From contig CM049319.1 of the NCBI GenBank assembly GCA_026874595.1, positions 3,564,601 to 3,628,600 of the forward strand: a stretch of 64,000 nucleotides of DNA, given 5' to 3'. The stretch comes from Sipunculus nudus (Eukaryota; Annelida; Sipuncula; Golfingiida; Sipunculidae). Shown here in pieces: positions 11,456 to 57,606 of the stretch. A model generated the notes under the pieces. That model did not search any database. It worked only from the letters and a program-made list of their open reading frames with translations, and was not told the DNA's origin. How positions within the stretch are numbered: position 1 is the first letter of the stretch; each line of letters opens with the position of its first letter. The position numbers were made by a program, and so were the translations under genes.

Positions 11456-11554
11456 TCAAGTCGACCCCAGGGCAGGGAACTCGTCATGCAAGAGGGCGTG
11501 GGTGCGACATGTTGGACATGTCCTTTCCTCCCCAAGCAACCAGCGCATAATACA
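11456..11554 (-). CDS. Exon 22 (last): RING-H2 finger, second half, and stop
   Basis: Residues 2376-2407 and stop TGA at 11456-11458. Acceptor cttgttacag. CIMRWLLGEERTCPTCR completes the RING (C2376, C2389, C2392 by spacing), with the conserved Trp after the sixth ligand and the Pro between the last two Cys. The tail THALLHDEFPALGST closely follows the RING. The pattern CPTCRxHxLLxxEFP is what I recall for DZIP3/TTC3-type RING proteins, and is the main basis for that suggestion. Confidence 0.95.
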   Translation of the reverse strand, partial: CIMRWLLGEERTCPTCRTHALLHDEFPALGST

Positions 11555-14500
11555 CTGTAACAAGAAATCAAGGTCAAACAACATTACTGCTGTACAGTTA
11601 TTATGTCTCTTAGATACCAGTCATGTACAAATGATAAAGCCATACTAACACTGGCTGATTAACTAGAATATCAGCAGAAGCTGACAAAAGCCCTCAGCCA
11701 AAAGAACAGTGTTTAGAGGTGGTAACAGTAACAGATACTAAACACGTGTTCTCACATGGATGTATATCTGTACATGTCTCAGTTTTAAATTTAAAATGGA
11801 GAGGTATGTACCATGATTCATAACAATCCACCAAATGCTTCCTGAAATATAAGCTTCTAAGTGTTATTCTATTATAAGCTCTGTGACCTTGAAAAGTAGG
11901 TCAAGGTCACCCATCTTCGAACCTGACCGAGATTTTGTCCATATACATCTTCACCAAAGAAATACAATTCCTATTGTGAATCATTTAAGAGATTTCCCGC
12001 TCACAAGGACAAAGTTGAAAAATCCAAGAAAAATTCATTAAAAATCAGAAATTGTAGGTGGTGCTCCCAAACTCGTGCAGCAGTTACAGACCATCAGTCC
12101 CTATGATCATAGTAAGTATTGTGAAAATCCACCATATGGTTCCTGAGAAATAAGCTTCTAAATGTTTTTTCTATAATCAGCTCTTAAACGTAGAAAAATA
12201 GGTCAAGGTCACCCATCTTCGAACTTGACTGAGATTTTGTAAATATACATCTTCACCAAAAAAATAATATTCCTACGGTGAATCCTTTTAGAGATATCCC
12301 GCTTACAAGCCCAAAGTTGAAAAATCTGATAAAAATTCATCAAAAATCAGAAATTGTAGGTGGCGCCACCAAACTTGTGTAGCAGGTACAGACTATCAGT
12401 CCCAATAATCATAGTAAGTTTTGTGAAAATCCACCAAATGGTTACTGAGTAATAAGCATCTAAGTGTTTTTCTTTAATCAGCTCTAAAATGTAGAAAAAT
12501 AGGTCAAGGTCACCCATCTTCGAACTTGACTGAGATTTTGTCGATATACATCTTTACCGAGGAAATAAAATTCTGACGGTGAATCCTTTTCAAGATATCC
12601 CGCTCACAAGGTAAAAGTTAACGGACGCCGGACGGACGGATGGACAGCTTGGGTGACGACAATAGCCCATCAGCCTAAGGGCTAAGGGCTAATAAGTGAC
12701 CATTAAAGATCTGAACATACCATGATGACTGAACATACCATTACAATCCAAGTCTTCATTGAAACAGACTTTCTTAGCCAACATTTTTATTATGGCTGGT
12801 CAAACAGCTGTCTATGATTATAAAAGCACAAAATTGAGAACATCATTTTAGTCAAATATATTGACAAATAGCTGTTTTACTTTTTTGTGTTAAGTTATAT
12901 GTGATGAATATGTATTTACATGCAGTCATTTCCATAAAATTAAAACCTAGGATACTGACAGGTCAGGAAGGGCCTTGCTAAAAGCCCATAAACTTTCCCT
13001 GTAGACTGAGTGATGCTTGATAAAATATAATAAAGGACCTGATTACATGCAGAGACAGAAGGAACTGACCCGAAACAGTGTTTAAATATCTGAACCAAGA
13101 TGTGAAGGTTTGAATCAGTGATAGTCGTGTATGAAGGTGTATAAGTAGAGCATCCCAAGCAACACAGTCATAATTAAATCTGATGTATAAAACTGTAAGT
13201 CTGGTCAGCATATAAATAAGTAGGATGGTCCTGTGACCTTGACCTTTGAACTTGGGATGTCAAGATGGAGTTATCATCCTGAAACAAATTTGAGGACAGA
13301 TGGCTCCTGCCCCCTTGACTTTGTGACCACAAAATCGACAGGGATCTTCCTATATTGGCAGATGAGCTATGTTTACAAGATGGAAGGTCTGGGATAAAAA
13401 GTTGGGCTTAAAATGCATCCACAAATTTTTTAAAGACGTGGGTCCTGTGACCTCATGACCCTAAAATCAATAGAGTTCTTGCAGTAGTGGTTGGCCATAT
13501 TTAAGTAAAGTTTAAAATCCGTATGTCAATCCAAACTGGACTTATCATCTTGAAACAAATTTGTGGACAGACAGAAAGACAGTCGCAGCTTTAACTATAG
13601 GATACCTGCTATTCAAGTGGGGCCCTAATAGGGACCTTATCACTTTTGATTAGAGTTCTTTTGTTTTGGAAATAAGATTGAAGCACAGCAGTTTTACTGA
13701 ATGTATTAATGATATGAACATTTTGAACAATTCAGCCATGCCTCATGAGTGAATATTTGAGAGAAATACTCACCGGTTCATGGAACTCGTGGCCACACTC
13801 CAGTCGTTTCCCGCGACCGTCAGGAATGTTATCACAGCAAATCACGCAGGTCTCTAGATCTTCATCCTGAAATATTACATGATGAAAGATAAGTGACCCA
13901 TGGGTCATGACACTTAGCTGCCAATATTACAAAGTAATAACAAGTGACCCATGGGTCATGACACTCAGCTACCAATATTACAAAGTAATAACAAGTGACC
14001 CATGGGTCATGACACTCAGCTACCAATATAACATGATATCAGAACAGTGATGCTATGTCTGAATCCTATAAATATAAATGTTCATTTTTCCTTTCCCAGG
14101 TGCCCATCCTATGTGACACTTTTACAGGGATATTCTCATTATATCACAGGGGTGAGAAGTTGTTCATCATATCTCTGGTGGATTACAAGTAAACCCATCC
14201 CAGAGAGTGTTGTTTAGTTCTTAACTGAATTAAAGGAGAACCCAATGGCCAGAGTCCCCCATCCCCCCCTCCCAGGGACCCTTGACATATGAGTCTGGAA
14301 ATCTCTTATTTGGCTAGATTTTCCTATGTCAAACATTTTGCACATTTATTTTCAGTTTCAAAGATTTCCAATACCATTATTGTTCTTTAAGAAATATTCA
14401 TTTTCTGTTAAAATATAAAGACCTCTGAGCAAGATATCTGTTAGAACAAATTTTTAATCTAAAATTAATCTGAACAGAAATGGGCGAATTTCAAACCCGG

Positions 14501-17500
14501 AGCATCATCATGGTTGAAATAAAAAAAGAATGTAGATGACTTGGTTTTTGGTTTAGTTTGTAATCCAAAGATTGGATCATATATATATACATACATCATC
14601 CAGGTCCAGTGCTCCCGTAGCAGACAGCGGTACACCAGGGATAGCCAGCACTGGGAAGTCTGTCTTACTGGGCCTGCTGGCTGATGCAGCCTTCCTTGCT
14701 GCCTGGGCAGCACTGGTCCTGGCTTTCTTCTTGGCTGCTTGTTCAGCCTCCATTGCTTTCTGTCCTGCCATCAGTTCTTCAATGGTGTGAGCGAAAATGC
14801 ACTGAAAAATGAGAGACCATTAATCTAACCTGGTTGCCTGTTGAACTGTGCACTATAAATCCAGTGCTTACCTTCCACAAGCACTGAATCACCTCACAAC
14901 ATTAATCAAGCTTTAGTGATTTGAATGACAGTGGGTTAGAAATTTAAACTGTAATACACCTTGTAAGTATTGTATCACATGTACGTATTGTAATAAGAGC
15001 GGTACAAAGTATATATGAGATACTGGCCAGTGCTGCTTCAGGCCCTTGAATCAGGAGCAAAACAAGAATTCAGATAAGCCAGCAGCAGCACCCACGGCAC
15101 TTGGGGATGAATGCCTGAACACCTGTCCCATAAGCACACGGACAGGCATGTGTCTAGCACCCTTACACAGAATGACTGAGAACAATCTTTCGTTATCATC
15201 ATTAGAATGCCATATATAGCAGGTCAGGAGTAACACCATTGTCAGAAATTAGTTGAACAGCGAGTGATTGGCTGATTGATTGGTAACAAGTATTTTTTTT
15301 TAAGTTTCAAAATATTTGATTAGAAGTTTGGTTACCTATGACACCCTCTCTGGTCTGGTGCTATACTTATATATTCTAGGCATTTGAAGGCAGGAAACAG
15401 TGACTCTGGGTTTATCATAGGACAACTAAAGGTTTAATGCTAACCTTATCCTTATAGGTACACCCACCCTTGGCGACCTTTGAGCACATGATGTGTTTTG
15501 GAAGACTCCGGAGTTCATGTCGACCATGGGCATACATACACTGGTCACCACTCGTACACTTGCCAGCCTGCCAGAAACCACAGATCTGTGTCTTGTATAT
15601 ATAATTCTTCCTGACATCAGTTACGTATTCCGGTAAGAAATCTGCGGTGCTACTGGCAGCCGGTTTACTCTGTTTAGACCTCTCACTGACCAGCTCCTTG
15701 AAATCATTCATGATGACATTTAATGAGAGGCCTCGCAGACCTCCGTGTTTCACTCGGATTTGCTGAGTCAGCTGAAGGACGTCATTTCTCGTCAGGTGTG
15801 GATATGTATCAAGAACTCTCTTCACTAGACGTTCAAAGTTGTCCCCCTTGTGATGGCCTTCAGGGGCTGCTTTGGACCTGGACTGCTCTGGCTTTGTGCT
15901 CTCACCTTTCTTCTTCTTCTTTGTAACCTGATAACAAAAAAAAAGTAGTGCCCTGATTACATAGTAAGTAGTAATCTGATTACATAGTAAGTAGTAACCT
16001 GATTAGATAGTAAGTATTACCCTGATTACATAGTAAGTAGTACACTGATTACATAGTAAGTAGTACCCTGATTATATATAAATAGTGTTACTTTATAACT
16101 TATAAGTCATAAAGTATTACCTACTTACAAAATGATAATAATTAGTTCCCTGATTATACTATAAAGCAGAAGCATAATGTTAAGACAGATGATATACATG
16201 ATTACATAGTAAGTAGTACTCTGATTACATAGTAAGTAGTAACTTGATTAAATAGTAAGTAGTACCCTGATTACATAGTAAGTAGTAACCCTGATTACAT
16301 AGTAAGTAGTACCCTGAGTACATAGTAAGTATTAACCTGATTACATAGCAAGTAGTAACCTGATTACATAGTAAGTAGTACCCTGATAACATAGTAAGTA
16401 GTACCCTGATTACATATTAAGTAGTACCCTGAGTACATAGTAAGTAGTACCCTGAGTACATAGCAAGTAGTAACCTGATTACATAGCAAGTAGTACCCTG
16501 ATTACATAGCAAGTAGTACCCTGAGTACATAGCAAGTAGTACCCTGAGTACATAGCAAGTAGTAATCTGATTACATAGTAAGTAGTACCCTGATTACATA
16601 GTAAGTAGTAGCCTGATTACATAGTAAGTAGTAGCCTGATTACATAGTTAGTAGTAGCCTGATTACATAGTAAGTAGTACCCTGATTACATAGTAAGCAG
16701 TACCCTGATTACATAGTAAGCAGTACCCTGAGTACATAGTAAGTAGTACCCTGAGTACATAGTAAGTAGTACCCTGATTACATAGTAAGTAGTACCCTGA
16801 TTACATAGTAAGTAGTACCCTGATTACATAGTAAGTAGTAACCTGATAACATAGTAAGTAGTACCCTGAGTACATAGTAAGTAGTAACCTGATAACATAG
16901 CAAGTAGTAACCTGATTACATAGTAAGTAGTACCCTGAGTACATAGCAAGTAGTAACCTGATTACATAGCAAGTAGTACCCTGAGTACATAGTAAGTAGT
17001 ACCCTGAGTACATAGTAAGTAGTACCCTGAGTACATAGCAAGTAGTAATCTGATTACATAGTAAGTAGTACCCTGATTATATAGTAAGTAGTACCCTGAG
17101 TACATAGTAAGTAGTACCCTGAGTACATAGTAAGTAGTACCCTGAGTACATAGTAAGTAGTACCCTGAGTACCTAGTAAGTAGTAGCCTGATTACATAGT
17201 AAGTAGTAGCCTGATTACATATTAAGTAGTACCCTGATTACATAGTAAGTAGTAGCCTGATTACATAGTAAGTAGTAGCCTGATTACATAGTAAGTAGTA
17301 GCCTGATTACATAGTAAGTAGTACCCTGATTACATAGTAAGTAGTACCCTGATTACATAGTAAGTAGTACCCTGATTACATAGTTAGTAGTACCCTGATT
17401 ACATAGTAAGTAGTACCCTGATTACATAGTAAGTAGTACCCTGATTACATAGTAAGTAGTACCCTGATTACATAGTAAGTAGTACCCTGATTACATATTA

Positions 17501-20500
17501 AGTAGTACCCTGATTACATAGTAAGTAGTAGCCTGATTACATAGTAAGTAGTAGCCTGATTACATAGTAAGTAGTAGCCTGAGTACATAGCAAGTAGTAA
17601 CCTGATTACATAGCAAGTAGTACCCTGAGTACATAGTAAGTAGTACCCTGAGTACATAGTAAGTAGTACCCTGAGTACATAGCAAGTAGTAATCTGATTA
17701 CATAGTAAGTAGTACCCTGATTATATAGTAAGTAGTACCCTGAGTACATAGTAAGTAGTACCCTGAGTACCTAGTAAGTAGTAGCCTGATTACATAGTAA
17801 GTAGTAGCCTGATTACATAGTAAGTAGTACCCTGAGTACATAGCAAGTAGTAATCTGATTACATAGTAAGTAGTACCCTGATTATATAGTAAGTAGTACC
17901 CTGAGTACATAGTAAGTAGTAGCCTGATTACATAGTAAGTAGTAGCCTGATTACATAGTAAGTAGTACCCTGAGTACATAGCAAGTAGTAATCTGATTAC
18001 ATATTAAGTAGTACCCTGAGTACATAGTAAGTAGTACCCTGAGTACCTAGTAAGTAGTAGCCTGAGTACATAGCAAGTAGTAACCTGATTACATAGCAAG
18101 TAGTACCCTGAGTACATAGTAAGTAGTAACCTGATTACATAGCAAGTAGTACCCTGATTACATAGTAAGTAGTACCCTGATTACATAGTAAGTAGTAGCC
18201 TGATTACATAGTAAGTAGTAGCCTGATTACATAGTAAGTAGTACCCTGATTACATAGTAAGTAGTAGCCTGATTACATAGCAAGTAGTACCCTGATTACA
18301 TAGTAAGTAGTAGCCTGATTACATAGTAAGTAGTAGCCTGATTACATAGTAAGTAGTAGCCTGATTACATAGTAAGTAGTACCCTGATTACATAGTAAGT
18401 AGTACCCTGATTACATAGTTAGTAGTACCCTGATTACATAGTAAGTAGTACCCTGATTACATAGTAAGTAGTACCCTGATTACATAGTAAGTAGTACCCT
18501 GATTACATAGTAAGTAGTACCCTGATTACATAGTAAGTAGTAGCCTGATTACATAGTAAGTAGTACCCTGATTACATAGTAAGTAGTACCCTGATTATAT
18601 ACCTAGTGTTACTTAATAACTTATAAGTCATAAAGTATAACCTAATTACATAATGATAATAATTAGTTCCCTGATTATACTATAAAGCAGAAGCATAAAG
18701 TTAAGACAGATGAAGATTAAGTTTAATAAATAATACAAGTCACATGACTGGAAGTATTAAAACTGCCCATCAGCTGGAACTGTTTTAAAGTTTATCAATA
18801 TTTTCACAAGTGCTCTATGATTTCTCATAAAATGTTAACAACATACAGATGGGCAGACAGACGAGTGATACCTAAAGGGCATTTGCTTTTTGAAGCAAGC
18901 CCCCCTCCCAAAAAAAAAACAGTTTTAGGGTTTATTTTTATTATTGCATATTACTATGAAGGTGTCTCCATCTCTACAAAATTTTGATAATGTTGGCAGG
19001 AAAAAAGGATAAAAGGTATGTAAATCTGCTGGTAATATGTCACTAGAATATTACAATAAATTCTACAAACTGAATCTGTTTTATTAAGGATATCTTGATT
19101 GTTAACAGGTTTATTCAAAATGAATATTCATGTATGATTATTGGTCTGTAAAAGCTGCTTCACCAGCTCCCATTCACCCTGCTTTGATATTAAATGATTT
19201 TTCCACTCGGACTGACCATTTACTTGAATATTCATGAGCTCATTCATATACAATGATACAACCTACTCCTGCTGGTGCTTTGTCAAGATGTGCAGTTCTT
19301 TACTGAGACTGACCTTTTTTTATGAATTATGATTCACATGATAATTTATGTAATCATTAGTATGCGAGTGAGGCCTTACCTGTTGCCATTCATCATGTTC
19401 TGTCATCATGTCAAGTTCTCTGGTCAGGCTGATCTCTGACATCTGTGAGGCGGAGGAAACATCTGGAGATGATCTGGAGTCTGAAATGTAACACTGCAAT
19501 ATTAACATTATAACTACAGTCCATCATATGATGACTTATAGTCAGCTGAGCTAAAAAAACAAGGGGACAGGGGATGATGGAATGAATTATATCATCAAGT
19601 AAAATTTCACACACATCCTTGACCTATTAAATTTAAATTTGTTGTTTCATAGGACTGACAACAATCTGATCAAAATATCGTGTATAAAAATTTGGTGAAA
19701 CAAGATGTGAATATACAACACCATGGCTACATACTGCACAGGTTTATAAAATTAAATTTTTCTGGATTAATATTTAAGGATTATATCATGATAAGAGCTA
19801 CTTCCAATATAATGAAATTTTCTAGATAAGTAAACTGAAATCATCACACTAAAAAAAGCTCTCTACAAAGGCCTGTTCATATTAGAGAGACAGCAAGAAA
19901 TAAGCCAAACCATGACAAAGATATACAACCAATATTTCTGAATGTTCACTGCATCATGAATAACAGTTTTGAGTGAACTTTTTGGGCTGAAATATATTTT
20001 CTGAATTGAAAAGCATCTTTTTCTTCCAATAATCACCACATTTTTTGGTAACACATACTGGTCATTGCAGAAGAGCCATCGCCTCTACCCCTGGTCTGTA
20101 GGAGGGGGTTGGTGGAGTCGGCATCCTTCATCTTAATGCACGGAGTCACAACTGTAAAAGAGATATCATAAATATAAGATAATGCATAATATTATAAACT
20201 AGATGTATGAAATCACCAAGCAATCAATGGAAGCCTCCCATCCCAGGACTCAACATTAACGGTTAACCGCTTGCCCAGGGCAAGTAAAAACAGTGGTAGG
20301 GCAACCATCAGTGGGTTCCTACTTGTCCAACTGGGCCAGTGGGTGCAACATAAACTTTTACACATTTTAAGGCCTGAATCTTGACCAATCTTATGTTGGC
20401 CACTTTCTTTTTCAGGAGAAGTGAAATATTTTAATACTGTTAGCTTTAATTACATGCATGTTTTAATCTATGCAAATGCCAAAGAGAAATATAATTAACA

Positions 20501-53500: not shown

Positions 53501-56500
53501 TAAGAACCTCCCAGAATATTGTGTTAGAAGATTCTAGGCCTAACAGATAGGTTTGTGCCCATCTGACATTCAGGGTGCTCAAAATCATAATTTCTGCCTG
53601 TAGACACAAAATATAGGTCACCATGACCTTCTTTCTGAATTACAAGGAAATGTGCCTAGAACCTCCTAGGATATTGTGAAAGAAGATTCTAGGCCCAACA
53701 CATACAATAAATTTGTCCCAATCTGACATTCAGGATGTTCTAATGACATATTTTTCCTATAAGTTGCAGAATAAAGGTCTCAGTGACCTGATTTTAGGTT
53801 TTCAAGGTCTTAATTAACAGCTATTCTTAGCAGACAGGTCAGTTATAACCAATGTGAATGCTTTTGGTTCACCCAAGGGTGGTCTTAATAGACAGGTGGT
53901 CTTTCAGACAGATTCTACTGTCAGACTTCTTAAAACTTTGAGGCCTTACAAAATAGGTCTATTAGATAAACAGGAGCCAGTCGTAATACTGATGCAGTGT
54001 TACTTACTCCTCTGTGGGTGTGAGAGTCGGTGATGACATGGTCGTAAGTCCTGGTGGTATGGACTTCAGTATCAGCAGGTTGCCATGGCTCTCGATGTAA
54101 TCAGAACGCATCAGGAACGTCTTTATGTTGCCGTGTGCCATGACGACTTTGCGTTCGTAAGCAGGCAGCTTGATGAACTGGTTGAGAACGTGTTCACTGG
54201 TTGTCTCCAACGGACCATGCGACAAAAGCAGCTTGCAGAAAATTCTGTTCAGATAAAAAAGTATTAATTTTATTTATTTTAGACATGTAAGCTTGGCACA
54301 AGGAGTGCAACAAAAGAAGGTTCAACAAAAGATTGTTCCCAAAAATAATACACACAAGTCCTTATTAGGGGTATTACTGGCTAACACAGACCAAGCAGAG
54401 GGCAAGTTTACTGTTGCCTGGAATTATTTCTTTCCTGACCTATATCTTACCTGTAGATTTTTTCTTGTGTTTCTTTCAGATTCAAGCCTTGGTTCATAGA
54501 ACCAACTCTCTCTACAACATAAAGAATGAGGAATACATTTGCCAAGGTTAACATGTCTCTTTCATTAGTGACAATGTCTGTAATAAATTTATGACATTAT
54601 AAACCAAACATCACAAAGATTGTTTAAATATGCAGAAATATCTGGGACACAGAAAATAAGTTTTTTTAAGCTGAGCAGAAAATTCAATTGAGTGGACAAT
54701 TTTTTTACCTTAAGATAAGCACTGGGTAACTACTACTGAACAGTTTTGGGCTGTATGTAATGTTTCACTAATGATATATTCCTGTTGTTTCTTCCCATGA
54801 TTTTGAGTCATTTTAGAACACTTTTTTTACAGGATTTACAATAAATAGTGTTTCTACTTAAGGCAATAAACTTCTGCTTTCATGAGTTCAGTATTTGGTT
54901 AAGTAACGTCACAAAGTGAAACAGGGATTCAGTGAAAATAATATAGAATAACTAAAGAGGCACACTCAAATTTTAAGTAGCAAGTGACAATAGTTAAAAT
55001 ACAGGTTGAAATATATGTTTGCTTTAAATTTTCACCCTAATTGATGGTTAATTGACCTTGACCTACCAGCAGTCTCGACTCCCATAAGGCAGCTCTGGAT
55101 GGGATCTAATGTATCTCGTAAATCTTTGGATCCTGGAGAAGATAAATATGGCGAATGGCTCTCACGCTTGGTTATGCGGCGGCCAGAGTTCTGCATGGAG
55201 GATGTGGCACTAGGTGAGTTTTGTGGAGGAGTGTAGCTCACTTGTCTTTGAACATTTGTAATATCTGCAAGTACAGATCCAAACAGTTTCATTGTAAGCA
55301 AAATATCAGGATCATCAGGCATAATTAACACACTAAACAAATTAAACAAAATGAATAAAGTCAACATGCTATATAATTTGTGCATTTCTGTAGAACTGCT
55401 GAATTACAAATTTCAGTAAAATAACCTTTAATTATGCCATATACTTAACATTTCACAGCTCAGCAAACTTTAAAACTATATCTGCATGGAAGGCAAATGA
55501 GCAATTTATGAAAACAACAATCAACTGTTGTCTTGTTGGTGAGTATGAGAAAGGGTGTTTACCTGATGTTGTTGACTGTTGTCTTGTTTGTGAGTATGAG
55601 ATTTCATGTTTACCTGTTGTTGTTGACTGTTGTCTTGTTGGTGAGTGAGATGGGGTGTTTACCTGTTGTTGTTGACCGTTGTCTTGTTGGTGAGTGTGAG
55701 ATTTAGTGTTAACCTGTTGTTGTTGACCCTTGTTTTGTTGGTGAGTGTGAGATTGGGTGTTTATCTTTGTTGTTGACCATTGCCTGGTTGGTGAGTGTGA
55801 GATTGGGTGTTTATCTGTTGTTGTTGACCGTTGTCTTGTTGGTGAGTGTGAGATTTAGTGTTTACCTGTTGTTGTTGACCGTTGTTTTGTTGGTGAGTGT
55901 GAGATTTGGTGTTTACCTGTTGTTGTTGACGTTGTCTTGTTGGTGAGTGTGAGAAAGGGTGTTTATCTATTGTTGTTGACCATTGTCTTGTTGGTGTGAG
56001 ACAGGGTGTTTACCTGTTGTTGTTGACCATTGTCTTGTTGGTGAGAGACGGGGCGTTTACATGTGGTTTTTGACCGCTGTCTTGGAAAGTGTGAGATTTG
56101 GTGTTTACTTGTTGTAGTCGGCTGTTGTCTTGTTGGTGAGTGTGAGATGGGGTGTTTACCTGTTGTTTTTGACTGTTGCCTGTTTGGTGAGTGTGAGATG
56201 GGGTGTTTACCTGCTGTTGTTGACTGTTGTCTTGTTTGTGAGTATGAGATTTCATGTTTACCTGTTGTTGTTGACTGTTGTCTTGTTGGTGAGTGAGATG
56301 GGGTGTTTACCTGTTGTTGTTGACCGTTGTCTTGTTGGTGAGTGTAAGATTTAGTGTTAACCTGTTGTTGTTGACCCTTGTTTTGTTGGTGAGTGTGAGA
56401 TTGGGTGTTTATCTTTGTTGTTGACCATTGCCTGGTTGGTGAGTGTGAGATTGGGTGTTTATCTGTTGTTGTTGACCGTTGTCTTGTTGGTGAGTGTGAG

Positions 56501-57606
56501 ATTTAGTGTTTACCTGTTGTTGTTGACCGTTGTTTTGTTGGTGAGTGTGAGATTTGGTGTTTACCTGTTGTTGTTGACGTTGTCTTGTTGGTGAGTGTGA
56601 GAAAGGGTGTTTATCTATTGTTGTTGACCATTGTCTTGTTGGTGTGAGACAGGGTGTTTACCTGTTGTTGTTGACCATTGTCTTGTTGGTGAGAGACGGG
56701 GCGTTTACATGTGGTTTTTGACCGCTGTCTTGGAAAGTGTGAGATTTGGTGTTTACTTGTTGTAGTCGACTGTTGTCTTGTTGGTGAGTGTGAGATGGGG
56801 TGTTTACCTGTTGTTGTTGTTGACTGATGCCTGGTTGGCTAGTGTGAGATGGGGTGTTTACCTGTTGTTTTTGACTGTTGCCTGTTTGGTGAGTGTGAGA
56901 TGGGGTGTTTACCTGCCGTTGACGACCGTTGTCTTGTTGGTGAGAGTGAGATTGGGTGTTTACCTGTTGTTGTTGAGCCTTCTTGTTGGTGAGTGAGATG
57001 GGGTGTTTACCTGTTGTTGTTGACTGTTGTTTGTTGATGAGTGAGAGATGGGGTGTTTACCTGTTGTTGTTGACCGTTGCCTGGTTGGTGAGTGAGAAAT
57101 GGGGTGTTTACCTGTTGTTGTTGACTGTTGTTTTGTTGGTGAGTGTGAGATTTGGTGTTTACCTGTTGTTGTTGACGTTGTCTTGTTGGTGAGTGTGAGA
57201 AAGGGTGTTTACCTATTGTTGTTGACCATTGCCTGGTTAGTGAGTGTGAGATGGGGTGTTTACCTGTTGTTGTTGACCGTTGTCTTGTTGGTGCGTGTGA
57301 GATTGGGTGTTTACCTGTTGTTGTTGACTGTTGTCTTGCTGGTGCGTGTGAGATTGGGTGTCTATGTTGTTGTTGACTGTTGCCTGGTTGGTGAGTGTGA
57401 GATGGGATTTTTACCTGTTGTTGTTGACCGTTGCCTGGTTGGTGAATGTGAGATCGGGTAGTTGACAGCCTGGCTGGCTGGAGGTAGGACTAGTGGTGGT
57501 GGGGGGCTATGAATGACTTGAGGATGATGACAGTGAGACATTTGCTGATGGTTGTACATAGGTTGACTGGCAACTTGAGGCTGGTAATAAGCATTCTGGA
57601 CAACAA
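11456..57606 (-). CDS. Large CCCH / RING-H2 protein, probable E3 ubiquitin ligase (22 exons, 5' end missing)
   Basis: Spliced gene: exons 57415-57606, 55067-55264, 54451-54511, 54008-54244, 50204-50271, 44504-44647, 36811-36909, 33529-35933, 32541-32632, 31867-31945, 28164-28286, 25157-25738, 24623-24674, 23712-24127, 21737-22940, 20958-21155, 20059-20151, 19380-19480, 15445-15927, 14595-14801, 13774-13866, 11456-11554. All borders are GT/AG and all phases agree, giving 2407 codons plus stop. Residue numbers start at the first whole codon of exon 1. Seen: three PAM2-like motifs (about 733, 754, 1001), a coiled coil (about 1120-1232), CCCH fingers (2230-2248 and 2262-2280, both C-x7-C-x5-C-x3-H) and a RING-H2 finger (2351-2395). 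Known: RING-H2 domains recruit E2 enzymes, CCCH fingers often bind RNA, and PAM2 binds the PABP MLLE domain. Inferred: an E3 ligase acting on mRNA-bound complexes. The tail after the RING (CRTHALLHDEFP) recalls the TTC3/DZIP3 family. Makorins also combine CCCH, RING and PAM2-like motifs but have a different layout and are far shorter. No start codon or promoter is visible. Confidence 0.85.
11860..12695 (+). mobile_element. Pearl-like element fragment with 3 tandem cores of about 305 bp
   Basis: Three diverged copies of a unit containing AGGTCAAGGTCACCCATCTT and GAAAATCCACCA (starting near 11870, 12175, 12478), then ACGGACGCCGGACGGACGGA and an end GACGACAATAGCCCATCAGC. Tandem core, ACGG microsatellite, then a fixed 3' end is the layout of other elements in this window. 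In the intron between exons 21 and 22. Confidence 0.75.
12953..13640. mobile_element. Dispersed repeat, copy A (paralogue at 45182)
   Basis: Starts ACTGACAGGTCAGGAAGGGC and ends GGGGCCCTAATAGGGA. It has the same order of blocks as 45182-45976 (GCTTG.TAAAATATAAT, CTGATTACATGCAGAGAC, CAGTCGTGTATGAAGG equivalents, then TGACCTTGACCTTTGA-type units). Non-autonomous, with no coding frame. In the intron between exons 21 and 22. Confidence 0.7.
13774..13866 (-). CDS. Exon 21: RING-H2 finger, first half
   Basis: Residues 2345-2375. Acceptor tttcag, donor GAACCG|GTGAGT. The sequence ETCVICCDNIPDGRGKRLEC is followed by GHEFHEP. It supplies the ligands C2351, C2354, C2368, H2370 and H2373 of a C3H2C3 (RING-H2) finger. 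The fifth and later Cys ligands are in exon 22. The Ile between the first two Cys is the usual E2-contact position. Confidence 0.95.
13891..14042 (+). repeat. 51-bp direct repeat x3 carrying element 5' ends
   Basis: Three copies, starting at 13891, 13942 and 13993, of AAGTGACCCATGGGTCATGA plus CACT.AGCT.CCAATATTAC. The unit contains the 5' terminal palindrome TGACCCATGGGTCA found at the start of pearl-like elements elsewhere in the window, here without the rest of the element. Confidence 0.92.
14045..14590. other. Intron between exons 20 and 21, no feature
   Basis: Apart from the short repeat beside exon 21, this intron shows nothing recognisable on either strand. Confidence 0.4.
14595..14801 (-). 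CDS. Exon 20: end of second CCCH finger, Ala/Lys-rich helix
   Basis: Residues 2276-2344. Acceptor tttttcag, donor GATGAT|GTATGT. The first residues CIFAH supply the third Cys and the His of CCCH finger 2, so the intron cuts the finger exactly before its third ligand. A long Ala/Lys/Glu/Arg helix follows (EAEQAAKKKARTSAAQAARK), then a Pro-rich stretch and an acidic DLDD that leads into the RING. Confidence 0.92.
15445..15927 (-). CDS. Exon 19: UBA/CUE-like helices and first CCCH zinc finger
   Basis: Residues 2115-2275. Acceptor gttatcag, donor GATAAG|GTTAGC. It starts with VTKKKKKGE. It then has a helical segment, KRVLDTYPHLTRNDVLQL plus a following HGGLRGLSLNVI. The spacing resembles a CUE/UBA-like three-helix fold (inference, not tested). 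CCCH finger 1 is KTQICGFWQAGKCTSGDQCM plus YAHG (C2230, C2238, C2244, H2248). The second finger starts here (C2262, C2270) and is completed in exon 20. A long 23-bp satellite begins within about 15-20 bp of its acceptor. Confidence 0.93.
15941..18600. repeat. 23-bp satellite array, about 110 copies
   Basis: Unit CCCTGATTACATAGTAAGTA plus GTA, with common variants (GAGTACATAG, AGCAAG, AGCCTG). On the sense (minus) strand each unit reads TACTACTTACTATGTAATCA plus GGG, so each contains an AG preceded by pyrimidine-containing sequence. It is interrupted at 16075-16200 by a non-repeat block and abuts the acceptor of exon 19 (15927/15928). Confidence 0.97.
16068..16192. repeat. Direct repeat bracketing the satellite, left copy
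   Basis: About 125 bp including GTTACTT.ATAACTTATAAG, AATGATAATAATTAGTTCCC and ACTATAAAGCAGAAGCATAA. Its partner is at 18590-18712. The main array lies between them. Confidence 0.9.
18590..18712. repeat. Direct repeat bracketing the satellite, right copy
   Basis: Near-copy of 16068-16192, same orientation. It suggests that the array and its boundary were duplicated together and that the inner array then expanded. Confidence 0.9.
19380..19480 (-). CDS. Exon 18: acidic, helical end
   Basis: Residues 2081-2114. Acceptor acatttcag, donor CAACAG|GTAAGG. A Ser-rich beginning is followed by an acidic amphipathic helix, TRELDMMTEHDEWQQ. It joins the Lys-rich start of exon 19 in phase 0. About 45 bp upstream of the acceptor lies a solo 3' end of a pearl-like element (19524-19558). 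Confidence 0.78.
19524..19558 (+). mobile_element. Solo 3' end of a pearl-like element
   Basis: CATATGATGACTTATAGTCA plus GCTGAGCTAAAAAAAC matches the 3' terminus of elements ending at 27730, 40806, 44218 and 50098. No core repeats are attached. Confidence 0.7.
20059..20151 (-). CDS. Exon 17
   Basis: Residues about 2050-2080. The acceptor is cttttacag and the donor ACCA|GTATGT splits an Asn codon with exon 18. The sequence VTPCIKMKDADSTNPLLQTR is followed by a Gly/Ser stretch. No domain is recognised. Confidence 0.76.
20244..20647. mobile_element. 0.4 kb TIR element in the intron between exons 16 and 17
   Basis: Left end CAGGACTCAACATTAA and right end TTAATGTTGAGCCCTG are inverted copies with one mismatch. 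The inside has several GGGCAAGTAAAA-type motifs in both orientations. There is no transposase. The target-site duplication is not clear. Confidence 0.7.
20958..21155 (-). CDS. Exon 16: polar linker
   Basis: Residues about 1984-2049. Acceptor tcctgcag, donor CCGAAAG|GTAAGA. It contains QSSYEEDFPTMSKPKSGSSQ, then a Gly/Gln/Arg-rich stretch (GQSRQGTRGAGDQPSR) resembling an RG-type RNA-contact region. It is likely disordered. Confidence 0.82.
21737..22940 (-). CDS. Exon 15: Lys/Ser/Gln-rich disordered segment with basic cluster
   Basis: Residues 1583-1983. Acceptor atatttgtag, donor GGTAAAG|GTAAGT. It starts HQPELAGNSQLLHQLTLQHL and has three 11-residue repeats of the SQSLKDDKKT type (about 22440-22520). 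A KKKKKKKSDKTKK cluster near 22270 could act as a nuclear localisation or RNA-binding patch. A W-containing acidic stretch (EAWDEPDDYSEKTVWSLG) and Ser/Thr/Pro-rich repeats near the end (SVTPPTSTS, SITPPFSFT) follow. No globular domain is seen. Confidence 0.88.
22965..23110 (+). mobile_element. tRNA-like SINE fragment
   Basis: Contains a B-box-like GTGGGTTCGTAACCC and, about 40 bp upstream, an A-box-like TGGCGTAATGTGTGG, followed by a non-tRNA body with ACCACAAGG repeated. It starts about 25 bp upstream of the exon 15 acceptor. tRNA folding is not complete, so it is not a functional tRNA gene. Confidence 0.5.
23350..23612 (+). mobile_element. SINE-like repeat, copy A
   Basis: Shares blocks in order with 36586-36776: CTCTCTC(A/T)GC...CTGG, (G)GGTTTGATCACAGGCATGGC, TATGAGA(A/G)TGG, CTCTGGTTCTCT-like, a GGGTGAGTGCC block, and the tail ACTATTTGTACAAT. 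The B-box-like GGGTTTGATCAC sits near the 5' part. Between exons 14 and 15. Confidence 0.65.
23712..24127 (-). CDS. Exon 14: Gln/Met-rich (QMG repeat) segment
   Basis: Residues 1444-1582. Acceptor tactttag, donor CTACAG|GTAAAT. It contains many spaced QMG or QQM units (QMGQIEQKQMGQIEQMGQ, QQMGH, QQMSQ, QQMGR, QQMGG, QQMAP), then a Pro/Ala stretch and a probable helix MREHYMTIASALLQ. The composition is prion-like, typical of proteins that enter RNP condensates (inference). Confidence 0.85.
24623..24674 (-). CDS. Exon 13: 52-bp micro-exon
   Basis: Residues 1427-1443, reading DDSGTSEDVRHNLSPAQ. Acceptor attaacag, donor CTCAAG|GTATGC. It is very short but has good splice sites, and its phase fits exon 12 (phase 0) and exon 14 (G+TA gives Val). 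Confidence 0.8.
25157..25738 (-). CDS. Exon 12: Ser/Thr-rich disordered segment
   Basis: Residues 1233-1426. Acceptor ttcacttcag (25739-25740), donor ATTCTG|GTGAGT. A second AG 32 bases upstream (exon start 25770) was rejected because its phase does not match exon 11. It contains DELLPYWPASEIQSKPAP, a short TDATDTTDAT repeat, an HVHNHHTSGSG stretch and RKPPGLTNIL at the end. It is probably unstructured. Confidence 0.83.
25824..27730 (+). mobile_element. Complete pearl-like non-autonomous element (family 1)
   Basis: The 5' end CAAGTGACCCATGGGTCAAG plus ACGCTCAGCTGA is followed by five tandem units of about 337 bp (near 25990, 26328, 26664, 27003, 27343), each with CAGGTGG.(G/T)CCACCAGTCTGCA. 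Then come a degenerate ACGG tract (27622-27680) and the 3' end CGCTATAGCTCAGATGACTT plus ACAGTCAGCTGAGCTAAAAA. GCTCAGCTGA occurs inverted at both ends. This layout is that of pearl/HINE elements of molluscs, thought to be mobilised by Helentrons. No coding capacity. It lies in the intron between exons 11 and 12, 86 bp from exon 12. Confidence 0.88.
28164..28286 (-). CDS. Exon 11: coiled coil, basic end
   Basis: Residues 1192-1232, exactly 41 codons. Acceptor attgacag, donor CGG|GTGGGT. The sequence includes YEANLTELRAGKQLRELNEI with strong heptad-like Leu spacing, and ends in YLKR. The preceding intron (28287-31866) is largely one 3.1 kb TTAA-flanked element. Confidence 0.85.
28334..31433. 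mobile_element. 3.1 kb TIR element flanked by TTAA, fills an intron
   Basis: Terminal inverted repeat AGGACATGACCAGCG at both ends, flanked by TTAA at 28330-28333 and 31434-31437. A second inverted block, TGACGTCAGCTCAGGAAC, lies about 200 bp inside each end (near 28530 and 31217-31234). TTAA target sites are used by piggyBac and Kolobok transposons (known). No transposase frame is seen, so it is non-autonomous or decayed. The inside is AT-rich and contains an internal duplication (30510-30583 and 30788-30860). Confidence 0.82.
30510..30860 (+). repeat. Duplicated 72-bp module inside the TTAA element
   Basis: TAGAGG(C/T)GTACTT..., GACTA.ATACAACT.ACAAGC and CAGTGGATTGCTT appear at 30510-30583 and again at 30788-30860, 278 bp apart, about 85% alike by eye. 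Confidence 0.8.
31867..31945 (-). CDS. Exon 10: coiled coil, acidic
   Basis: Residues 1165-1191, reading SDNSELDSALFADAKEEIEV and onward to IMRVQ. Acceptor ttttgtag, donor GTTCAG|GTGGAT. The first base completes the Arg codon started in exon 9 (AG+G). It continues the helical, charged pattern. Confidence 0.78.
32059..32090. repeat. Poly-C and (CA)n microsatellite
   Basis: A run of about 19 C followed by (AC)7. Length is likely to vary between alleles and to be prone to assembly error. Confidence 0.97.
32143..32293. mobile_element. 151-bp MITE with CAGTGGAAC termini and TA target site
   Basis: Left end CAGTGGAACCTGTGATAAG, right end GACAAGTTCCACTG (inverted), flanked by TA on both sides. Inner GGTGGTC motifs are also inverted. 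CAGT...ends with TA duplication fit a Tc1/mariner- or pogo-like non-autonomous element. A decayed relative is at 53810-53930. Confidence 0.8.
32541..32632 (-). CDS. Exon 9: coiled coil
   Basis: Residues 1135-1165, reading ETLLGLQAQVCITKLMKNLH and onward. Acceptor tactacag, donor CCTCAG|GTATGA. It is a Leu/Glu/Lys-rich helix in register with the end of exon 8 and with exons 10 and 11, forming one predicted coiled coil of about 110 residues. Such a region could mediate oligomerisation, as in many RING ligases (inference). Confidence 0.82.
32800..33500. other. Intron between exons 8 and 9, no clear feature
   Basis: Single-copy-looking sequence without recognisable repeat or second coding frame. 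Confidence 0.4.
33529..35933 (-). CDS. Exon 8: 2.4 kb exon, disordered, repeats and PAM2-like motifs
   Basis: Residues about 333-1134. Acceptor tacttgcag, donor GCTGAG|GTAAGA. Parts in order: four degenerate repeats of about 29 residues built on NLSASKEEF and a QQ stretch (roughly 35570-35910); an acidic Ser/Thr/Glu-rich stretch; PAM2-like LDPSSPVFIP (34705-34734) and LNIDSPEFKP (34642-34671); about twelve 14-16 residue repeats around NSDSEFKPRPSSV (34120-34640); a Pro/Val-rich stretch; a canonical-looking PAM2, LNTNAPVFEP (33901-33930); then three VG[VI]-type motifs (FGVHC, VGINT, VGVQT). The coiled coil begins near the end. I know no named family for the whole exon. Confidence 0.9.
33901..34734 (-). 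other. Three PAM2-like motifs in exon 8
   Basis: Sense-strand peptides LNTNAPVFEP (33901-33930), LNIDSPEFKP (34642-34671) and LDPSSPVFIP (34705-34734). The known PAM2 core is L-N-x-x-A-x-x-F-x-P, which binds the MLLE domain of cytoplasmic poly(A)-binding protein. The first matches every key position; the second has Ser for Ala; the third has Asp for Asn and Ser for Ala. Confidence 0.75.
34120..34640 (-). repeat. Coding tandem repeat, 14-16 residues, about 12 copies
   Basis: Units of the type NSDSEFKPRPSSV, NNDSELKPRASSV, KDSVEKPRPSSV, in frame within exon 8. They adjoin the PAM2-like LNIDSPEFKP and share its EFKPR core, so they may have grown from a PAM2-like motif. DNA copies share CTAGGTTTAA and TCACTGTCAACACTGCTTGG. 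Confidence 0.85.
35570..35915 (-). repeat. Coding repeat, about 29 residues, 4 copies
   Basis: NLSANKSEFQKQQQ, LQTSKEQFYMQQ, NLSASKEFHKQQ and DLTASKEEFYN, separated by Ala/Val/Ser-rich spacers, at the start of exon 8. Each has Leu and Phe six or seven residues apart, as in PAM2, but lacks the Ala and Pro of PAM2. Confidence 0.8.
36000..36585. other. Intron between exons 7 and 8, no feature
   Basis: AT-rich with nothing recognised between exon 8 and the SINE-like repeat. Confidence 0.4.
36586..36776 (+). mobile_element. SINE-like repeat, copy B
   Basis: B-box-like GGGGTTCAATCCCCAGTG, then GGCTATGAGAGTGGGTTG, TTTCTCTGGTTCTCTCCACC, GGGGAGTGCC and tail AACTATTTGTACAAT. Same family and strand as 23350-23612. 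The GTTCAATCCCC arm suggests a tRNA-derived head. Confidence 0.7.
36811..36909 (-). CDS. Exon 7: helical charged exon
   Basis: Residues about 300-332. QVKNEDDVRRQKMEDQFR is probably a helix, followed by CTAESLGIVVSEPA. Acceptor ctttacag, donor CGCTG|GTAGAT. The split Ala codon joins it to exon 8. It sits between a SINE-like repeat (36586-36776) and the element cluster at 37 kb. Confidence 0.8.
37007..37037 (+). mobile_element. Solo 5' end of family 1 element
   Basis: CAAGTGACCCATGGGTCATG plus ACGCTCAGCTG, without the family 1 core behind it. About 290 bp downstream begins a family 2 element. Confidence 0.8.
37327..38660 (+). mobile_element. Complete family 2 element (GTATCCGC hairpin ends)
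   Basis: The 5' end CTAGAATACAGGTAGTCGAC plus AAGCGACTACGTGTATCCGC is followed by tandem units of about 280 bp with AATGG.TGCAGGTGGCGCC and GGTTCCCGAGATATGAGC. A unique 3' part with GGCGGCAGCGGCG ends in GTATCTGCAAAACTCTGTTT plus TGGCGGATGC, an imperfect hairpin. No ACGG tract and no coding frame. Other copies are at 41321-42503 and 57915-61471. Confidence 0.85.
38665..39655. other. Intron, no feature
   Basis: Two similar phrases about a neighbouring 'ATAATGGATTTCTGACAAGT'-type motif recur at 38870 and 38995, probably one old decayed repeat. Otherwise nothing is recognised. Confidence 0.4.
39656..40806 (+). mobile_element. Element with TGACCTTGACCTTTGACC cores and family 1 3' end
   Basis: It starts with an exact 38-bp tandem duplication (39656-39724), then four units of about 140-280 bp containing GTGACCTTGACCTTTGACC. 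A short family-1-like block, an ACGG tract (40716-40758) and the terminus CTATAGCCCAGCATGACTGA plus AAGTCAGCTGAGCTAA follow. The mixed cores show that different tandem cores share the same 3' end. Confidence 0.78.
41138..44218 (+). mobile_element. Family 1 pearl-like element carrying a nested insertion
   Basis: 5' end CAAGAGACCCATGGGTCATG at 41138. The leader matches 25824 onward up to AAACTTTAAAAA at 41320, is interrupted by a family 2 element (41321-42503), then resumes at AAATACAGGTGGCTCCACCA. Tandem cores follow to the ACGG-type tract (44140-44166) and the 3' end CAGTCAGCTGAGCTAAAAAG. Confidence 0.85.
41321..42503 (+). mobile_element. Family 2 element nested in family 1
   Basis: Starts CTAGAATACGGGTAGCCGAC and ends GTATCCGCAAAACTTCGTTT plus TGGCGGATAC. 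The 3' hairpin is GTATCCGC(C)AAAAC against its inverted copy. The host sequence on both sides rejoins as in the uninterrupted family 1 copy at 25980, within an A-rich run, so both ends of the insertion are well defined. Confidence 0.85.
44504..44647 (-). CDS. Exon 6: acidic / Thr-rich linker
   Basis: Residues about 252-299. It begins with a run of Asp from a GAT repeat (with exon 5 giving DDDDDG), then VVTKTTRVVLEEQRIEQPK, then a Pro/Thr-rich stretch. The acceptor is atgttacag and the donor is CTGCAG|GTCTGA, a non-consensus +3 to +6 that is retained because the phase fits on both sides. Confidence 0.75.
45182..45976. mobile_element. Dispersed repeat, copy B (paralogue of 12953)
   Basis: Starts ACTGACAGGTCAGGAAGGGC and ends CAGGGCCCTAATAAGGA. 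The central part carries GTGACCTTGACCTTTGACC and TGACCTATGACCTTTGCCCT. Same block order as 12953-13640. Confidence 0.7.
46168..46200 (+). mobile_element. Solo 5' end of family 1 element
   Basis: CAAGGGACCTATGGGTCACT plus GTGCTCAGCTGA, with no core. It shares the C-T change (ACCTATGGGT) with the solo end at 61472, which breaks the palindrome. Confidence 0.75.
46200..48090. other. AT-rich intron sequence, G runs
   Basis: No coding signal and no family recognised. Contains two poly-G tracts (about 47158-47171 and 47984-47999). Confidence 0.4.
48090..50098 (+). mobile_element. Pearl-like element with ACGG microsatellite (family 3 core)
   Basis: Tandem units of about 0.55-0.7 kb (starting near 48110, 48660 and 49285) contain CAGTACTTACAGGAAAAAA and AAAATTTAAGGTACCAATTT. 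They are followed by TTTCAAAACGTGCCACATCT, a pure GGAC/ACGG run (49989-50045) and the shared 3' end GACTATAGCTCAGATGACTT plus ATAGTCAGCTGAGCTAAAAA. Same 3' end as family 1 with an unrelated core. Confidence 0.85.
50204..50271 (-). CDS. Exon 5: short acidic exon
   Basis: Residues about 229-251, reading KLEEQSSSEVAGNNGYVQLMDN. Acceptor tgttgcag, donor CAATG|GTGAGA. One base enters the split Asp codon from exon 4 and one leaves into exon 6. It lies just past the 3' end of the repeat element at 48090-50098, which stops about 105 bp before it. Confidence 0.78.
50280..50905. other. Intron between exons 4 and 5, no feature
   Basis: AT-rich, nothing recognised next to exon 5. Confidence 0.4.
50908..52775 (+). 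mobile_element. Element with AGGTCA-rich tandem cores
   Basis: 5' end AAGTGGCCCATGGGCCATGA plus TGCTTAGCT, a compensated variant of the family 1 palindrome. Then at least five units of about 280-300 bp with CCTGTGACCTTGACCTTTGA plus CCTCATGACCCCAAAATCAA. A terminal block GGCGGCGGCGGGACC and a hairpin-like GTATCCCTGTCTGGGGATAC match the style of the family 2 3' end. Confidence 0.8.
52776..53800 (+). repeat. Decayed tandem repeat, about 185-bp units
   Basis: Recurring ATAGGTCACCATGACCTA.TT, TTTCAGGTTTCCAA and TGTTAGAAGATTCTAGGC phrases, about five copies, with no ends. Probably a relic of an element core related to family 1 (shared CAGGTTTCCA and GATTCTAGG phrases). Confidence 0.7.
53810..53930. 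mobile_element. Decayed relative of the 32143 MITE
   Basis: Shares CAGTTATAACC-, ATAGACAGGTGGTCTTTC- and ATTCTACTGTCAGACTT-type blocks with the right half of 32143-32293. The left end is not recognisable. Confidence 0.5.
54008..54244 (-). CDS. Exon 4: small folded helical segment
   Basis: Residues about 150-229. Acceptor ctgaacag, donor GAGGA|GTAAGT. Unlike most of the protein it is rich in hydrophobic residues and looks folded: KLLLSHGPLETTSEHV, FIKLPAYERKVVMAHGN, then IKTFLMRSDYIES. The pattern 'xxHGxIKxFLxxSxxF/Yxxxxxxxx L' reminds me of a segment in large TTC3/DZIP3-type RING proteins, but this is from memory and not tested. It becomes Ser/Thr/Pro-rich at its end (SSPTLTPTEE). Confidence 0.82.
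54451..54511 (-). CDS. Exon 3: short charged exon
   Basis: Residues about 130-150, reading RVGSMNQGLNLKETQEKIY. The acceptor tgttgtag lies in a short AG repeat (AGAGAG), so other AGs are possible. 54511 is chosen because only this keeps the frame with exons 2 and 4. The donor is TACAG|GTAAGA. It leads directly into the helical segment of exon 4. Confidence 0.7.
54545..55060. other. Intron between exons 2 and 3, no feature
   Basis: AT-rich sequence without a recognisable element. Confidence 0.4.
55067..55264 (-). CDS. Exon 2: Ser/Pro-rich linker
   Basis: Residues about 64-129. Acceptor cttgcag, donor GCTG|GTAGGT. The phase fits exon 1 (G+AT gives Asp) and exon 3 (G+AG gives Glu). It contains a short basic SGRRITKRES stretch and SHSPYLSSPGSKD, both suited to phosphorylation. 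It ends in an acidic, probably helical DLRDTLDPIQSCLMG. No domain is recognised. Confidence 0.78.
55555..57460. repeat. About 50-bp minisatellite derived from the end of exon 1
   Basis: About 38 units. On the sense strand each reads like the end of exon 1 plus its donor: CACTCACCAACAAGACAAC, then TCAACAACAACAG|GTAAACACC. So nearly every unit carries a CAG|GTAAAC donor. The array fills intron 1 and continues into exon 1 (57415-57460). A higher-order 648-bp duplication is present (55565-56212 and 56213-56860). Confidence 0.93.
57415..57606 (-). CDS. Exon 1 in window: Pro/Gln/His-rich segment
   Basis: Residues 1-63. The acceptor is tttgccag at 57607 and the donor CAACAG|GTAAAA is at 57415. The exon begins with two bases of a split codon and ends with one. 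The sequence is low complexity, with HHPQVIHSPPPPLVLPP and a Thr/Arg-rich end, so it is probably disordered. No upstream exon with the required phase was found, so the gene continues beyond the window. The last 40 or so bases of this exon, with its donor, are the template of the minisatellite in the next intron. Confidence 0.75.

Follow-up and report, generated by a model that had tools for sequence, protein, structure and literature searches.

A gene on the minus strand of the window analysed here (64 kb; nt 3564601 – 3628600 of contig C14, in a genome of 1.43 Gb and 153 contigs) is probably, though by no means certainly, a divergent RING-H2 ligase of the TTC3/DZIP3 family, a paralogue of the TTC3 gene on contig C17, the product of which would be tethered by RNA on poly(A) mRNPs. 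The gene encodes domains of this family, has the domain order of C17 TTC3, has an intron in common with it within the RING, and carries a pair of CCCH fingers and several PAM2-like motifs. What is new relative to the TTC3 family is the ZFP36-like finger pair, situated between the TTC3_9th domain and the RING.

The gene and its exon chain

The gene consists of 19 exons, running from nt 55264 down to 11459 of the window and coding for 2281 aa, with no stops before the terminal stop. In an exon-by-exon check the phase agreed at all junctions and every intron was GT-AG. The chain was taken from a gene finder using codon and splice scores, with some exons chosen by hand. Exon 54511–54451 came from two lower-penalty runs and exon 54244–54008 from the lowest-penalty run only; both were retained on account of their phase and of the Pfam score. 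The Pfam scan of the chain covered all exons but three short ones (24674–24623, 21155–20958 and 19480–19380). The features, all on the minus strand and in window numbering, are as follows.

55067–55264, minus: exon for aa 1–66 in the model, where the wHTH_TTC3 region begins; raises the wHTH_TTC3 score from 36.3 to 38.0 bits
54451–54511, minus: exon, wHTH_TTC3 continued; 36.3 bits when joined with exon 54244–54008 and the following exons
54008–54244, minus: exon, wHTH_TTC3 core; one of two places listed by the genome search; 26.2 bits alone
50204–50271, minus: exon, linker; placed by hand, phase-consistent, weak acceptor score (-0.4)
44504–44647, minus: exon, linker; gene finder and phase check
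36811–36909, minus: exon, linker; gene finder and phase check
33529–35933, minus: exon, 802 aa, low complexity; within an 822-aa open frame
34705–34734, minus: PAM2-like motif 1, LDPSSPVFIP; relaxed pattern
34642–34671, minus: PAM2-like motif 2, LNIDSPEFKP; relaxed pattern
33901–33930, minus: PAM2-like motif 3, LNTNAPVFEP; strict LNxxAxxFxP, Pfam PAM2 11.1 bits
31867–31998, minus: exon, helical stretch weakly resembling PF24525, the TTC3 helical domain; 16.0 bits (E 0.0085) and 18.3 bits, cut-off 27
28164–28286, minus: exon, continuation of the helical stretch; phase check and Pfam scan
25157–25738, minus: exon, low complexity; gene finder and phase check
24623–24674, minus: exon; gene finder and phase check
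23712–24127, minus: exon, Q/M-rich tract; gene finder and phase check, composition
21737–22886, minus: exon, low complexity; gene finder and phase check
20958–21155, minus: exon; gene finder and phase check
19380–19480, minus: exon; gene finder and phase check
15445–15927, minus: exon with TTC3_9th, the whole of CCCH finger 1 and the N-terminal half of finger 2; TTC3_9th 23.5 bits, zf-CCCH 24.5 bits
15667–15837 (C14:3580267–3580437), minus: probable TTC3_9th helical domain (PF24905); 22.5–25.9 bits, cut-off 27
14595–14801, minus: exon completing CCCH finger 2 (second half); two CCCH stretches once joined with the preceding exon
13774–13866, minus: exon with the first half of the RING-H2; 37.9 bits for zf-RING_2 once both RING exons are joined
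11456–11554, minus: last exon, second half of the RING-H2, TTC3-style tail and stop (11456–11458); 31 aa align with the tail of C17 TTC3 at 68% identity

The frame ends, as the initial annotation had read it, shortly after a RING-H2, 16 residues past the last RING cysteine. The same annotation had counted 22 exons and at least 2407 residues; the 19 exons and 2281 aa given here are in phase, while further 5' exons between nt 57606 and 55264 could not be confirmed because this stretch is occupied by a tandem array interrupted by stops. The array (nt 55527–57459, beside the 5' exons) has 38.6 copies of a 51-bp (17-codon) unit and contains 6, 12 and 31 stops in its three frames. Its long open frames resemble a Q/T/S-rich protein, yet none of the three frames is free of stops, and the pieces of it that the gene finder placed as exons were discarded for this reason. 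Beyond the window, the gene finder proposed a possible P/Q-rich exon at 66014–65869 (window numbering), and a scan for the N-terminus, by read-through of the upstream minus strand over window positions 64001–84000 only, had no Pfam hits at E<=0.05.

Prion-like low-complexity parts had also been claimed for the protein, and a Q/M-rich tract with 28 Q in 100 residues is indeed present. Three [DE]FPx[LM] motifs occur in the C-terminal part (EEDFPTM, KTDFPVL and DEFPAL, in exons 21155–20958, 14801–14595 and 11554–11459), the last of which, DEFPAL, is common to the C14 protein and C17 TTC3. A 12-bp palindrome, GGTGGCGCCACC, is found with at most one mismatch at 29 places from nt 12359 to 61342 of the window (mean 0.00 in 100 shuffles), nearly always within tandem arrays with units of about 110 to 390 bp. 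An intronic minisatellite with a 23-bp unit in about 116 copies (nt 15943–18601) stops 16 bases short of the TTC3_9th/CCCH exon, on its upstream side. Many near-identical repeat fragments, some more than 95% identical in translation, occur in the non-coding sequence of both the window and the C17 TTC3 locus and are probably shared transposable elements.

Relationship to the TTC3 gene on C17

Judged by its sequence, the C14 gene has a strong claim to membership of the TTC3/DZIP3 family, because of its wHTH_TTC3 domain, the ranking of its TTC3_9th match and its RING with attached tail. The wHTH_TTC3 profile (PF24812) is matched at positions 8–103 by the sequence of three joined exons, with 38.0 bits against a cut-off of 27. 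The score rises with each exon added, from 26.2 bits (exon 54244–54008 alone) to 36.3 (adding 54511–54451) and 38.0 (adding 55264–55067), which also supports the exon chain. Across the genome only two places were listed for this profile, C17:49221947 (77.7 bits) and the C14 locus, and among 14 control genomes one, a bacterium, had a match, which was below cut-off. A PDB search with the wHTH_TTC3 piece returned no match at E<=1.

For TTC3_9th, C17 ranks first and the C14 locus second of the 14 places listed at E<=10, followed by a place on C10 (21.4 bits). The domain and CCCH finger 1 are encoded within a single exon of 161 codons, so that their joining is independent of splicing. In a structure predicted for the piece encoded by this exon (nt 15445–15927, with no relatives in the input), TTC3_9th forms three helices with a confidence of about 85, and the CCCH fingers are unordered (mean 57.6). 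Foldseek gave no match to this predicted structure at E<=0.001, and in VIA-align comparisons UBA and CUE domains reached Z 3.0–4.5, below and among unrelated entries (best Z 5.2). A CUE/UBA-type identity, an idea of the initial annotation, is no more than a possibility for the modelled domain.

The C-terminal RING-H2 that had been claimed is borne out by a zf-RING_2 score of 37.9 bits, above the cut-off of 27.3, once its exons are joined. In a comparison of open frames its two halves are 39% (33 aa) and 68% (31 aa) identical to those of C17 TTC3. Two residues past the last RING histidine, the open frame of either gene reads on as VSI through a splice donor at the same residue, so that the RING intron has the same position in C14 and C17. 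When the joined RING was searched against the genome (69 matches), the C17 half (E 1.5e-4, 66% identity) ranked below a RING on C3 (3.9e-5, 38% identity), which is more complete than the split half of C17.

The C17 gene is taken here as the genome's own TTC3. Its TTC3_DZIP3_dom, wHTH_TTC3 and TTC3_9th all score above cut-off; its RING halves are each below cut-off, the split RING being matched one half at a time, and for the joined TPR stretch TPR_2 reached 20.9 bits (cut-off 27). Read-through of one C17 stretch had no Pfam hits at E<=0.05. The gene was compared by open frames because gene models missed the first half of its RING and the second half of its TTC3_9th. Upstream of it lies a long open frame with acidic repeats of the type VTEEEFTNKDT (C17:49243366–49245999), and a stretch of C15 (6876721–6876831) that is 81% identical over 37 residues to its TPR region is possibly a partial copy.

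The C14 protein thus resembles TTC3 and DZIP3 (hRUL138) in its wHTH_TTC3, its probable TTC3_9th and its C-terminal RING-H2 with a C17-type tail, in the order seen in C17 TTC3, which bears out an earlier hint at these two proteins. Exon-by-exon searches did not find TTC3_DZIP3_dom and the TPR region on C14, where the modelled gene may be incomplete at its 5' end: 3 of the 10 matches listed for TTC3_DZIP3_dom (PF19179) are on C17 and none on C14, and the C17 TPR region used as query matched on C17 and C15 only. A genome search with PF24525, the profile weakly similar to the helical stretch, listed neither TTC3 locus.

The finger pair and the PAM2-like motifs

The tandem CCCH fingers between TTC3_9th and RING set the C14 protein apart from TTC3 and DZIP3. 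Both of the fingers proposed at the outset were recovered, finger 1 directly (zf-CCCH 24.5 bits, cut-off 20.5) and finger 2 once exons 15927–15445 and 14801–14595 were joined, after which PF18345 (32.8 bits) and PF18044 (30.9 bits), both above their cut-offs, each matched two stretches. A match to zf-CCCH_UNK was below cut-off. Of 31 PDB sequences found with the pair at E<=0.5, the best (9y10, 8.7e-11) is named only as a C3H1-type protein, and is ZFP36-like by its aligned sequence; butyrate response factor 2 (1rgo, 3.2e-10) and tristetraprolin (1m9o, 2.3e-7) are far nearer than Unkempt (4.7e-4) or Roquin (0.018), with CPSF4 at 4.6e-6. Within the genome, where six candidates were scored, the CCCH exon has only one other listed match at E<=1, to a ZFP36-like gene on C3. 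The finger pair aligns with the protein of that gene with a score of 134, whereas 2000 shuffles that left C and H in place never exceeded 82.

ZFP36/TTP proteins have two CX8CX5CX3H fingers and an 18-residue linker, as does the copy on C3. The C14 pair shares with them the two CCCH fingers and, at finger 1, the YKTxxC lead-in and HELRSL linker, and retains aromatic residues at three of the four positions that we take to be base-stacking in ZFP36L2. Unlike them, it has CX7CX5CX3H in both fingers, a linker of 13 residues, no second lead-in (YKTEL) and a RING in cis. These changes of spacing, linker and lead-in make a ZFP36-like RNA specificity uncertain, and the pair perhaps works like a ZFP36 protein without being one.

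At the C17 TTC3 locus, Pfam found no CCCH finger in the 10-kb stretch containing TTC3_9th and the RING, and a CCCH pattern matched seven times in 60 kb of C17 (one minus, six plus), never between TTC3_9th and RING; a finger split between exons would escape both searches. In the open-licence literature we found no TTC3/DZIP3 protein with CCCH fingers, although an annotated or published orthologue may well exist; papers on TTC3 together with CCCH were, by their titles, expression studies only, none on TTC3 together with DZIP3 concerned architecture by title, and nothing was found on the evolution of DZIP3/TTC3 in invertebrates.

The initial annotation had spoken of PAM2 motifs. Exon 35933–33529 has one match to the strict pattern and two further matches to a relaxed one, while the Pfam PAM2 score (11.1 bits) is below the cut-off of 20. 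In 20000 shuffles of the protein a strict match occurred in 21, relaxed matches in 4 and three relaxed matches in none, the relaxed pattern having been defined after the motifs had been seen. A still wider pattern, applied to six frames of 94 kb of C14, gave the same three motifs and two upstream of the window; in 60 kb of C17 it gave one match (49217639), outside the exons of the C17 model. The PAM2 consensus is LNxxAxEFxP, and human TTC3 stands in the PAM2 alignment of PMC7356810; TTC3 is also listed as a PAM2 protein in PMC12898128. With human TTC3 in such lists, the combination of PAM2 and RING is a known trait of TTC3 and is not new here. The layout, which the initial annotation could match to no described protein, is accordingly not without a family, given the TTC3-family domains and the published PAM2 of TTC3; the CCCH pair is still unusual.

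Mechanism, alternatives and implications

The CCCH fingers, PAM2-like motifs and RING are consistent with the earlier proposal of an mRNP-directed ligase, and from them the protein is predicted to bind RNA and PABP and to have ligase activity. The finger pair would bind a short U/A-rich mRNA element, and the PAM2-like motifs would dock on the MLLE domain of PABP; together, with the element nearby, these contacts would anchor the ligase to poly(A) mRNAs. Held beside the mRNA, the RING could then recruit an E2 and, in the manner of Makorin 1, ubiquitylate proteins of the mRNP such as PABP or ribosomal proteins. The three-helix TTC3_9th domain may conceivably assist by binding ubiquitin or a partner, but the weak structural matches to its model are not enough to claim a ubiquitin binder.

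Makorins are short, with CCCH fingers around the RING in an order of their own and without TTC3 domains; in the C14 protein, by contrast, the two fingers found both lie ahead of a RING at the very C-terminus. PMC6805484 presents Makorin 1 as an RNA-binding ligase with CCCH fingers, PAM2 and RING, much like the parts found here; it binds PABPC1 by its PAM2, is positioned upstream of poly(A), and has PABPC1 and RPS10 as ubiquitylation substrates. The TTC3/DZIP3 family itself offers another precedent for ubiquitylation guided by RNA, in the binding of DZIP3 to the RNA HOTAIR next to its client Ataxin-1 (PMC5707401).

A relative of Makorin, Roquin or Unkempt rather than of TTC3 would likewise combine CCCH and RING, in Makorin 1 with PAM2 as well (PMC6805484), and the sub-threshold zf-CCCH_UNK match points the same way. 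This origin is nevertheless very improbable, as wHTH_TTC3 is above cut-off, the tail is TTC3-like and, in the PDB search, Unkempt and Roquin chains are far less similar to the finger pair than those of ZFP36 type. Roquin and Unkempt unite RING and CCCH in one protein with an order and other domains that differ from those of the C14 protein, and their finger similarity to the C14 pair is weaker. A misjoining of two adjacent genes, one for a wHTH/PAM2 protein and the other for a TTC3_9th-CCCH-RING protein, is suggested by the long low-complexity middle, the roughly 7.6-kb intron that separates exons 44504 and 36909 and some weak splice scores, but we regard it as improbable: wHTH_TTC3 and RING lie on one strand in the order of C17 TTC3, and all junctions are in phase. 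For the CCCH part in particular, separate transcripts for exons 1–18 and 19–22 (numbered as in the 22-exon model) are unlikely, because TTC3_9th and the first finger occupy one exon.

The remaining alternative accepts the same TTC3-family gene, with the CCCH pair as a protein-binding or structural zinc module instead of an RNA reader, and the ligase acting on protein substrates in the way of other TTC3 proteins. The shorter linker and lost finger 2 lead-in, relative to the genome's own ZFP36-like protein, speak for it, whereas the ZFP36 lead-in and linker of finger 1, and the aromatic residues at three of four presumed base-stacking positions of ZFP36L2, speak against it; on balance it appears unlikely.

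The RNA-tethered ligase of the TTC3/DZIP3 family that we prefer can be taken a step further, in a form we hold tentatively and with considerable doubt: an mRNA-sequence-guided ligase, in which a TTC3 scaffold with a ZFP36-like reader could be in simultaneous contact with a 3' UTR element and the poly(A) tail, ubiquitylating whatever lies between them. If true, a ZFP36-like finger pair has been set beside an E3 module. TTC3 and DZIP3 have been studied mostly as ligases of protein substrates, and a paralogue with fingers of the RNA-reading type would tie their family to mRNP control. DZIP3 was first identified as an RNA-binding protein (PMC4645096). If the finger pair is old in the family, it would be an ancestral source of the RNA binding reported for DZIP3/hRUL138, the fingers having been lost from the C17-type TTC3.
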